From Patescibacteria group bacterium (GTDB lineage: Bacteria > Patescibacteriota > Minisyncoccia > UBA6257 > JAKLIH01), in the NCBI GenBank assembly GCA_022705625.1, contig JAKJEE010000003.1, forward strand, positions 1-40,698: a stretch of DNA of 40,698 nt, read 5' to 3'. The notes under the pieces are model-generated. The model had not been told where the DNA came from and did no database searches. It saw nothing but the letters and a program-made list of their open reading frames with translations. The first letter of the stretch is position 1. The number at the start of each line of letters is the position of its first letter. Shown here piece after piece: positions 2,907 through 26,875 of the stretch. The position numbers were made by a program, and so were the translations under genes.

Positions 2907-3246
2907 AAGTCAAAGGTCAAAGGTCAAAAGTCAAAAATAAAAATTCCAATATCCAATATTCAAAATAAAGTCAAAAGTCCCCCACACTAACTTTACATTA
3001 GAATGGTAATATTAGTTAAGGGCTATAAACATTTTAAACAAATTATATTATGTATCCAGTAAAGTTAATGTGGGGGCAGGCGCCAGTCAAAAAATAAAAA
3101 TTCCAATATCCGAAAAGAAATTACAATATTCAATATTCAATATCCAAAGAAAATATTCAATATACAATGCCCAAAGAGAAAATCAAAGATCAAAGATTAA
3201 AGATTAATAAAATATAATAATACAATAATAAAATAAATTAAATTTT
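2907..3246. other. ftsE-ftsX gap: degenerate repeats plus one inserted element
   Basis: There is no gene in these 340 bases. They hold drifting short repeats of the types GTCAAAG and CAATATCC/CAATATTC, and one 98-bp inverted-repeat element (2979-3076). A 25-26-bp direct repeat (GTCAAAAA..CAATATCC) occurs at 2930-2954 and again at 3086-3111, on either side of the inserted element. Confidence 0.75.
2979..3076. repeat. 98-bp inverted-repeat element, copy A
   Basis: The ends are CCCCCACACTAACTTTAC and GTAAAGTTAATGTGGGGG, an 18-bp terminal inverted repeat with one mismatch. The interior is AT-rich and non-coding, and carries a third copy-like motif (GTAATATTAGTTA) that could pair with the left arm in place of the right arm. 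It differs from copy G by only about two bases. It lies between ftsE and ftsX. No target-site duplication is evident. Confidence 0.9.
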
Positions 3247-4276: not shown

Positions 4277-4374
4277 CCACCACACTAACTTTACAGCAGG
4301 ATTGTAATGTTAGTTAATGGATATAAATATTTTAAACAAATTATAGCATATATCCAGTAAAGTTAGTGTGGTGG
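4277..4374. repeat. 98-bp inverted-repeat element, copy B (diverged ends)
   Basis: The ends are CCACCACACTAACTTTAC and GTAAAGTTAGTGTGGTGG, a perfect 18-bp inverted repeat. Compared with the other copies, the terminal C5/G5 has become CCACC/GGTGG at both ends together, and the mismatch seen elsewhere is repaired. Its inner arms GGATATA/TATATCC also pair perfectly. The right flank (tagcaatat-caaag) resembles the right flank of copy G. It lies between ftsX and the thymidine kinase gene. Confidence 0.9.
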
Positions 4375-25795: not shown

Positions 25796-25805
25796 GCCGA
25801 AGTGG
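25796..25805 (+). pseudogene. Possible tRNA-Leu 5'-end remnant
   Basis: GCCGAAGTGG is identical to the first ten bases of the intact tRNA-Leu at 26363. A CTTCG that could be the 3' acceptor side follows 6 bases later (25811-25815), directly before element copy C. The body of the tRNA is missing. A second similar start, GCCGAGGTGGTGAA, is at 26137-26150. Short matches like these could be chance. Confidence 0.3.
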
Positions 25806-25817
25806 CCCCGCTTCGCT

Positions 25818-25916
25818 CCCCCACACTAACTTTACAATAGAACGGTAATATTAGTTAAGAGAAGCGAAAGATAGTAAATAAATTATGGCATGTATTTAGT
25901 AAAGTTAATGTGGGGG
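25818..25916. repeat. 99-bp inverted-repeat element, copy C
   Basis: The ends are CCCCCACACTAACTTTAC and GTAAAGTTAATGTGGGGG. Its interior differs from copies A and G (it contains GAAGCGAAAG, complementary to the GCTTCGCT just outside the left end). It forms a 113-bp tandem repeat with copy D. Confidence 0.9.
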
Positions 25917-25930
25917 CTAGACGCTTCGCT

Positions 25931-26029
25931 CCCCCACACTAACTTTACAATAGAACGGTAATATTAGTTAAGAGAAGCGAAAGATAGTAAATAAATTATG
26001 GCATGTATTTAGTAAAGTTAATGTGGGGG
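25931..26029. repeat. 99-bp inverted-repeat element, copy D
   Basis: Identical to copy C as far as I can read, and separated from it by 14 bases (CTAGACGCTTCGCT) that recur after copy D. The identity implies a very recent duplication, or an assembly artefact. Confidence 0.9.
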
Positions 26030-26043
26030 CTAGACGCTTCGCT

Positions 26044-26072
26044 CCACTACTAACCAAAGGTTAGTGTGGGGG
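26044..26072. repeat. Collapsed 29-bp copy E of the element
   Basis: Only the two ends remain, fused: ACTAACC-AAA-GGTTAGT forms a perfect 7-bp hairpin and ends in GTGGGGG. It follows the same GCTTCGCT spacer as copy D and looks like an internal deletion product. Confidence 0.7.
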
Positions 26073-26150
26073 CAGGTCTCTTTAGCTAATATACAATTTT
26101 AATTTGTTTTTTAAAAGAGATATATTATATCTTTATGCCGAGGTGGTGAA

Positions 26151-26362: not shown

Positions 26363-26446
26363 GCCGAAGTGGCGGAACTGGCAGACGCGCTACCTTGAGG
26401 TGGTAGTGGTAGTAATACCTTGTGGGTTCAAATCCCTCCTTCGGCA
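26363..26446 (+). tRNA. tRNA-Leu (anticodon GAG)
   Basis: An 84-nt type II tRNA. Acceptor stem GCCGAAG/CTTCGGC with A73; anticodon stem CTACC/GGTAG with loop TTGAGGT, anticodon GAG; a long variable arm; T loop TTCAAAT. CCA is not encoded as part of the gene: the next bases are the CCCCCAC end of the GIY-YIG element, which begins at the very next nucleotide. A TATAAT box lies at 26349-26354. Confidence 0.93.
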
Positions 26447-26773
26447 CCCCCACACTAACTTTCATTTCTATTTATTAAATTATTTAAAAGTAGATATATG
26501 TATTACGTATATATACTAAAAAGTATAAAGTATCATACTCACTATATTGGCTATACAAATAATTTAATAAATAGGCTGAAACGTCACAACCACAAGGAAG
26601 TGTATGCCACCAAATTGAAAGCTCCTTACAAGATAGTATATTACGAAGCCTACGCTTCAAGAGATGAAGCGCATCGTCGTGAGCATAACCTTAAACTGCG
26701 AGCTCAAGCACTTAATCATCTTAAGAAACGTATCAAGAAATCTCTTGAAGCTTAATGAAAGTTAATGTGGGGG
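26447..26773 (+). mobile_element. GIY-YIG gene bounded by the element's terminal inverted repeats (copy F)
   Basis: The left end CCCCCACACTAACTTTC and right end GAAAGTTAATGTGGGGG pair over 17 bp with one mismatch. These are the ends of the 98-bp elements, except that the ACTTTAC/GTAAAGT inner edge is ACTTTC/GAAAGT on both sides. Between them lies one small gene (26498-26755). Only 34 nt separate the left end from the ATG, and one nucleotide separates the TAA from the right end. The whole unit is 327 bp. It abuts the last base of tRNA-Leu and is followed, after TCCA, by copy G. It looks like the gene-carrying form of the repeat family. Confidence 0.8.
26498..26755 (+). CDS. GIY-YIG nuclease-domain protein
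   Basis: 85 aa, a stand-alone GIY-YIG domain of the UPF0213/YhbQ type. YVYIL (residues 3-7) and HYIGYT (15-20) are the two halves of the signature. Arg26 (NRLKRHN) is the expected catalytic Arg, and Glu62 in EAHRREHNLK the metal-binding Glu. KAPYKIVYYE and the basic C-terminus are typical. All key residues are present, so it should cut DNA. It contains no Trp codon. The gene fits tightly between the inverted repeats of copy F, which suggests that the protein serves the element, for instance by nicking at the C5/G5 ends. That function is inferred; chromosomal housekeeping UPF0213 proteins are the alternative. Confidence 0.88.
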   Translation: MYYVYILKSIKYHTHYIGYTNNLINRLKRHNHKEVYATKLKAPYKIVYYEAYASRDEAHRREHNLKLRAQALNHLKKRIKKSLEA

Positions 26774-26777
26774 TCCA

Positions 26778-26875
26778 CCCCCACACTAACTTTACATTAG
26801 AATAATAATATTAGTTAAGGGCTATAAACATTTTAAACAAATTATATTATGTATCCAGTAAAGTTAATGTGGGGG
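26778..26875. repeat. 98-bp inverted-repeat element, copy G
   Basis: The ends are CCCCCACACTAACTTTAC and GTAAAGTTAATGTGGGGG; almost identical to copy A, 24 kb away. It starts four bases after the GIY-YIG copy F, so the two ends stand back to back as GGGGG-TCCA-CCCCC. Confidence 0.9.

Follow-up and report, generated by a model that had tools for sequence, protein, structure and literature searches.

Within the window (the whole stretch of 40,698 nucleotides that was analysed), a small gene for a GIY-YIG nuclease lies between inverted ends that recur in neighbouring non-coding elements. This raises the question of whether the unit, here called F, is a mobile element and, if so, what moves it. 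GIY-YIG nucleases have known roles in homing, repair and restriction. We favour, with a probability of roughly 0.7, the reading that F is a minimal mobile element, consisting of inverted ends and a GIY-YIG gene, which is aimed at structured-RNA genes. A wider proposal, on which we are evenly divided, is that F stands for a hitherto undescribed class of transposable elements. In this proposal the entire mobility machinery would be a single-domain GIY-YIG nuclease, which would recognise its own ends, insert the element into tRNA, tmRNA, 16S, 23S and RNase P RNA genes that supply transcription, and mobilise non-coding elements with matching ends.

The features of the window are collected in Table 1. 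The initial annotation had described F as 327 bp, with 17-bp inverted ends around an 85-aa GIY-YIG gene and one base after the stop codon, and this layout is what the coordinates give. The outer ends are CCCCCACACTAACTTTC at one end and GAAAGTTAATGTGGGGG at the other, the 17-bp inverted match between the arms is extendable to 20 bp with one mismatch, and a gap of one base separates the TAA stop from the 17-bp right arm. The left end had been placed exactly after tRNA-Leu, and the first base of F was indeed found directly 3' of the discriminator base (A26446) of tRNA-Leu(GAG). The TCCA between F and element G is the tRNA-tail tetranucleotide that flanks elements at tRNA-Ala in a second genome of the genus (G001, L194). 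The end motif was observed 14 times in the window (0.32 expected) and matched 59 + 55 (114) times in the whole genome, while a reversed control gave 0 matches.

Table 1. Positions of element F, its parts and the associated features in the window
Feature	Position	Strand	Remark
Element F	26447-26773	+	327 bp; inverted ends and one gene
Left terminal inverted repeat of F	26447..26466	+	20 bp, one mismatch to right arm
Right terminal inverted repeat of F	26754..26773	+	overlaps last bases of stop codon
GIY-YIG nuclease gene of F, 85 aa	26498..26755	+	sole gene of element
Internal inverted repeat of F, left arm	26468..26485	+	perfect 18-bp repeat CTATTTATTAAATTATTT
Internal inverted repeat of F, right arm	26557..26574	+	18 bp, within gene
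tRNA-Leu(GAG), intact, target of F	26363..26446	+	ARAGORN and junction reading
TCCA spacer between F and G	26774..26777		
Element A, non-coding	2979..3076	+	98 bp
Element B, non-coding	4277..4374	+	98 bp
Element C, non-coding	25818..25916	+	99 bp; 11 nt downstream of tRNA-Leu 5' fragment
Element D, non-coding	25931..26029	+	99 bp
Element E, collapsed	about 26044..26072	+	two ends only
Element G, non-coding	26778..26875	+	98 bp; same 16-bp ends as F
tRNA-Leu 5' fragment	25796..25806	+	GCCGAAGTGGC; same arrangement in G001
Second tRNA-Leu 5' fragment	26137..26149	+	GCCGAGGTGGTGA; broken by foreign insert; repeated in G001

Two further properties of the locus were noticed. The internal inverted repeat (26468-26574) brackets the beginning of the gene, from its start codon through its first codons. 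In another copy of the element (C8:42978-43304) the segment between the internal repeats is inverted, and turning it back raises the identity to copy C28 from 264/327 to 316/327; the same segment is apparently inverted in a copy of G001 (G001:C86, L193) as well, so the gene start can flip. Additionally, TGA is apparently read as an amino acid throughout the window and at L200, because ORFs of at least 150 aa nearly double in total length under code 4. The amino acid is probably Trp, since G001 has a tRNA with anticodon UCA that resembles tRNA-Trp. The GIY-YIG gene of F has no in-frame TGA or TGG codon.

The protein of F matches the Pfam GIY-YIG family (PF01541, E = 1.7e-11). Nine columns are invariant in 30 relatives, seven of which are motif or catalytic positions (Y3, Y5, Y16, G18, R26, H30 and E62). 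The membership test for the family combined a domain match with the catalytic set of Tyr, Tyr, Arg, His and Glu, and both are present. By its residues the F protein is a catalytically complete stand-alone GIY-YIG nuclease, without biochemical evidence. The dN/dS values between genomic copies are 0.04-0.25 (0.16 for F against the intact G001 copy), which, as far as sequence comparison can establish it, demonstrates purifying selection on the gene. The AlphaFold2 model of the protein has a pLDDT of 94.6, and the folds nearest to it are UPF0213 BH0048 (1ZG2) and Slx1 (best E = 1.5e-3). No known transposase (DDE, HUH, serine or tyrosine recombinase) is present in F, whose only gene is the GIY-YIG gene. 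UPF0213-like proteins are usually classed as repair-type nucleases, which would fit an F that is not mobile at all: a GIY-YIG repair gene of the host with ordinary terminators or processing hairpins on either side. A chromosomal GIY-YIG paralog without such inverted ends (C37:7521) speaks for the same reading.

The genome of the window (G000) is a MAG of 571 kb in 37 contigs and is 85% complete. Genome-wide pairing of the ends recovered 44 elements. Of these, 39 measure 97-107 bp, and the other five are all exactly 327 bp long. The GIY-YIG gene is present in all five of the latter, so that four further full copies carry it between the same ends as F. It is intact in F (C11), C18 and C34, with one stop in C28 and two stops in C8. 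Two contig ends (C35:17365-17449 and C34:1-84) hold the two halves of what would be a sixth copy, at tRNA-Val(CAC); this identification is probable. Because these contig breaks (the start of C34 and the end of C35) fall inside the element, copy numbers in fragmented assemblies are too low.

The tRNA targets of the five full copies are Leu-GAG, Pro-GGG, Leu-CAG, Val-GAC and Ala-GGC. All large copies, the split one at Val-CAC included, start right after the tRNA discriminator base, on the tRNA strand (with one extra C in C28 at Val-GAC), and the chance that a random insertion falls at most two bases from such a junction is about 1.5e-4. The tRNA junction of F in the initial annotation is not incidental, structured-RNA genes being the target. 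Upstream sequence is common to the Leu-GAG and Leu-CAG loci, so these two insertions may not be independent; the same search detected no such common flanks at the other loci. Short direct repeats are present at C34 (CGGCA) and C18 (CCGA), and no clear target duplication was found in the flanks examined at F, C8 and C28.

Occupancy was compared between G000 and two genomes of the same genus, G001 and G002. Elements fill the Leu-GAG and Val-GAC sites of G000, and neither G001 nor G002 has one at these two sites; the Val-TAC, Leu-CAA and tmRNA sites are occupied in G001. The Ala-GGC cluster exists in three states: G000 has the element, G001 has a 142-bp non-coding element (flanked by TCCA) together with a copy that carries the gene, and G002 has an empty site, with one neighbouring tRNA inverted. 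At the tRNA-Ile/tRNA-Val locus, G002 and G000 are colinear as far as the tRNA-Val base that immediately precedes copy C28; the alignment resumes about 75 nt beyond C28, with 19 nt between. In G002 this locus represents an empty site in a syntenic context, and its left boundary is precise. The F-type element is demonstrably mobile and targeted, and catalysis by the GIY-YIG protein is inferred. The reading as an immobile host repair gene is contradicted by the near-identical copies at several unlinked tRNA genes, by the syntenic empty site and by the insertions inside rRNA genes described below, and we give it next to no credence.

Six non-coding elements with the ends of F (A-E and G) had been reported in the window and are present as described, but only the 16-bp ends are common to them and F. 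The 98-bp family comprises about 39 copies of 97-107 bp in the genome, with a mean pairwise identity of 78% and interiors unrelated to that of F. Its members are not at tRNA ends, and only one copy is near a tRNA. Because the interiors are unrelated, these elements were rejected as deletion derivatives of F. The suggested layout of an autonomous element with MITE-like derivatives thus holds in that GIY-YIG copies occur with non-coding elements sharing their ends, and fails as to derivation by deletion; judged from their sequences, the 98-bp elements are end-sharing passengers. A second non-coding family, of 139-150 bp, also has the outer CCCCCACAC and is located at tRNA 3' ends. Loci of this family, with CCCCCACACYCAGAAA ends, are C3:12912, C21:8982 and C31, and L178, L198 and L203 in G001; at C29:10786 a similar left end comes after tmRNA. 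Head-to-tail joins of elements by CTAG or CTGG, giving GGGGGCTAGCCCCC, are frequent (L198, L203, C7 and others).

Outside the genus, G084, G209, G228 and G090 were each found to have a single end pair, the one that surrounds the gene, and in G147 there is one 133-bp pair whose ends are closely similar. These single-copy counts rest on patterns improved over CCCRCACCWWTTT, with which the counts in 13 other genomes were uninformative, as it left out the common TTTTG version. The non-coding swarm is seen only in this genus and is not class-wide, and most other sampled genomes have one end-pair copy, a distribution that agrees with homing or horizontal spread no less than with transposition.

Since several unrelated interiors have these ends and the genome is incomplete (85%), a transposase encoded elsewhere could recognise the CCCCCACAC ends, the GIY-YIG gene being merely carried. 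Against this, the comparison of many genomes shows the gene as the constant part, with ends that change along with it. Furthermore, no Y1 transposase (PF01797) was found in the 85%-complete G000 genome, and the ORFs between end pairs up to 3.5 kb apart are isolated or ordinary ones, FtsX for example, with no obvious transposase candidate among them (others were not domain-scanned). DDE-type transposases were not covered genome-wide. We regard carriage by another transposase as improbable.

A scan of 84,980 species genomes yielded 80 loci with relatives of the gene, mostly in Patescibacteria, with some in Omnitrophota and others. The gene was tightly bounded by inverted ends at 23 of 79 loci; the controls gave 2 of 1975 for random placements and 1 of 1975 for shuffles. 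In a second sample, a search of 380 Patescibacteria genomes, a family member was found in 276, and inverted ends around the gene were counted by hand at 16 of 29 loci. End sequences differ among genomes, usually starting with a C-rich run such as ACCCCGCACC, so that unrelated genomes carry the gene between inverted ends of their own. End similarity tracks protein similarity (Mantel r = 0.39, 0 of 5000 permutations), and the inverted-end trait is clustered on the protein tree (9 changes, 25.4 when shuffled), many forks of which are unresolved. Given that ends and protein vary together, and that no other enzyme emerged as a candidate, movement is likely to be the work of the GIY-YIG protein; that it, rather than another enzyme, does the cutting is an inference. 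Two outcomes had been named beforehand as refuting the idea that a stand-alone GIY-YIG domain underlies a transposon-like family: that copies of the ends elsewhere never flank such a gene, or that related strains carry the gene at a fixed locus with unrelated flanks. Neither was observed, the related genomes showing polymorphic occupancy and a syntenic empty site, and the idea is supported.

Structured-RNA genes host 18 of the 48 inverted-end elements outside the genus, in or at 16S, 23S, rnpB and tRNA genes (placement mostly by Rfam; by reading flanks for L259 and L262). If such genes make up 2% of the genome, the chance of this is about 1e-18. The specific sites are the V1 hairpin, h17, h44 and 3' end of 16S, one site in 23S, rnpB, and the 5' part of tRNA genes. 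Within rRNA and rnpB, variable hairpin regions are where the insertions fall, and the elements in RNA genes are all on the strand of the RNA gene; this same-strand bias and the tolerated sites could partly reflect selection. Direct repeats of at least 4 bp, variable in length, were detected at the junctions of 11 of 50 elements, compared with 2% for mismatched pairs. An identical rnpB site, directly before AGGAAAGTCCG, is used in three different genomes (L126, L221 and L233).

Several other interpretations of these insertions were discarded. Insertion at hairpin tips as a rule is unconvincing (12 of 28 junctions in a predicted loop, 28% for random sites); it is striking only at L107 and L123. 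An intron reading was rejected as Rfam found no intron ribozyme (group I/II) inside the scanned elements; the group I intron in L081 lies outside the element. A phage origin was rejected as well, the viral contigs examined containing no relatives and only one weak phage hit being obtained.

In addition to the loci with inverted ends, 27 further relatives have no tight inverted ends and lie immediately upstream of a same-strand tRNA gene. Under a 45-nt criterion, 28 of 80 loci (including L082) are upstream of a tRNA, none on the opposite strand, while the value for other ORFs of the same loci is 10 of 508. At many of these loci a 5' fragment of the same tRNA is present upstream of the gene, often interrupted by a palindrome, as with the TCCA-flanked palindromes in tRNA-Trp of L099 and L151; L097 and L141 are the mirror image, with tRNA 3' fragments downstream of the gene. 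The window, too, has tRNA-Leu 5' fragments upstream of its intact tRNA-Leu. As at integrase att sites, one intact tRNA is kept in such arrangements.

Some individual loci are more elaborate. L099, L108, L114, L120, L135, L151 and similar loci have partial tRNA copies with a palindrome in the anticodon loop or D-loop, and the interrupted copies (L099, L108 and others) are followed by the GIY-YIG gene and then by an intact tRNA of the same kind. No description of palindrome-interrupted partial tRNA copies with a GIY-YIG gene was found in the literature searched. In contig C12 of the window's genome (L015; 9360-9780, minus strand), two broken tRNA-Ser copies precede an intact tRNA-Ser, one of them with a 107-bp element in the D-loop and a palindrome in the T-arm, and a second, diverged GIY-YIG gene (37% identity) comes after the intact tRNA-Ser.

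The branch without inverted ends bears on the main rival explanation, namely homing into tRNA-like sites, with the inverted ends pairing at the RNA level into a stem by which the insert is looped out of the structured RNA, in the manner of 23S intervening sequences, and not serving as transposase sites. The members of this branch adjoin tRNA genes and have partial tRNA copies on their other side, the outcome expected if a cut tRNA gene had been repaired, and a precedent for cutting within tRNA genes exists in SegB, a free-standing GIY-YIG enzyme of phages (PMC13096335). The single copy of a given end pair in most genomes sampled and the variable hairpin regions chosen in rRNA and rnpB also agree with it. 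However, the same element is present at six or more different tRNA genes in G000, non-coding elements that have its ends abound outside RNA genes, the ends covary with the protein, short direct repeats are above chance, and no purpose is obvious for a stem that follows an already complete tRNA 3' end. We consider homing unlikely, though clearly the strongest of the rivals.

In the favoured reading, F is an element moved by its own nuclease; its insertion at the 3' end of tRNA genes leaves the tRNA intact. The gene starts 51 bp inside F and 15-50 bp inside most relatives, on the strand of the host RNA gene wherever this is known. The little room for a promoter upstream and the shared strand suggest expression from the promoter of the host RNA, probably that of a tRNA or rRNA, with release of the message, again probably, by ordinary processing of the RNA. 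Recognition of the inverted ends is probably also a task of the nuclease, which perhaps sees them as hairpins or cruciforms; action on hairpins is inferred from the closeness of its fold to UPF0213 and the branched-DNA nuclease Slx1. It probably also cuts the conserved DNA of tRNA and other structured-RNA genes with a short stagger. To our knowledge, GIY-YIG enzymes are hydrolytic nucleases and not strand-transferring transposases, so the joining must come from something else. Host repair, likewise an inference, would join element and target, sometimes leaving a 4-9-bp duplication, and non-coding elements with the same end sequence may be carried along. No biochemical evidence supports these steps.

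If true, the proposal would add a new enzyme family to DNA mobility, with an element of about 300 bp among the smallest autonomous ones known. It would account for unexplained GIY-YIG inserts in CPR rRNA genes, for the repeats and tRNA fragments found near tRNA genes of Patescibacteria, and for some assembly breaks. It also raises the question of how a domain without a separate DNA-binding part finds tRNA, rRNA and rnpB genes, and an 85-residue nuclease aimed at conserved sites could become a compact tool.

The transposon-like family had been thought new. In the open-access literature searched, no such element was found, nor were inverted ends, targets in tRNA and rnpB genes, empty sites or non-coding companions of a GIY-YIG gene. 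CPR rRNA insertions that encode GIY-YIG proteins have been described as unlike group I/II introns and scattered over several sites (Tsurumaki et al., 2024, PMC11270868), and their GIY-YIG proteins were placed outside homing in 2024 (PMC11270868). The 16S and 23S cases reported here are very likely the same objects. The 23S intervening sequences with IVP/S23 are likewise short rRNA inserts with inverted repeats and sometimes a small ORF, but their protein family is different, and the elements here also target tRNA and rnpB and have multiple genomic copies. SegB-type phage homing endonucleases resemble F as stand-alone GIY-YIG genes linked to tRNA genes, and the position next to tRNA genes is seen here too; they are phage-borne, and the portion of the source available reports neither inverted ends nor non-coding relatives (PMC13096335).

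RAYT/REP and IS200/IS605 systems share with F a small protein gene between palindromic ends and many non-coding elements with the same ends, whereas they use an HUH/Y1 tyrosine transposase and the only protein of F is GIY-YIG. The likeness to RAYT/REP drawn at the outset therefore stands for the layout, and RAYT identity was rejected, as no Y1 transposase was found in the 85%-complete genome. Compared with an insertion sequence with MITEs, F has the terminal inverted repeats and the non-coding elements with the same ends, but no transposase of known type. BH0048, for which we know of no inverted ends or mobility, is the closest solved fold and likewise a stand-alone GIY-YIG domain. Each known class considered misses one or more of the defining features that were tested, or has a different protein, which would make the element new in kind; the novelty would be smaller if homing were the mechanism.
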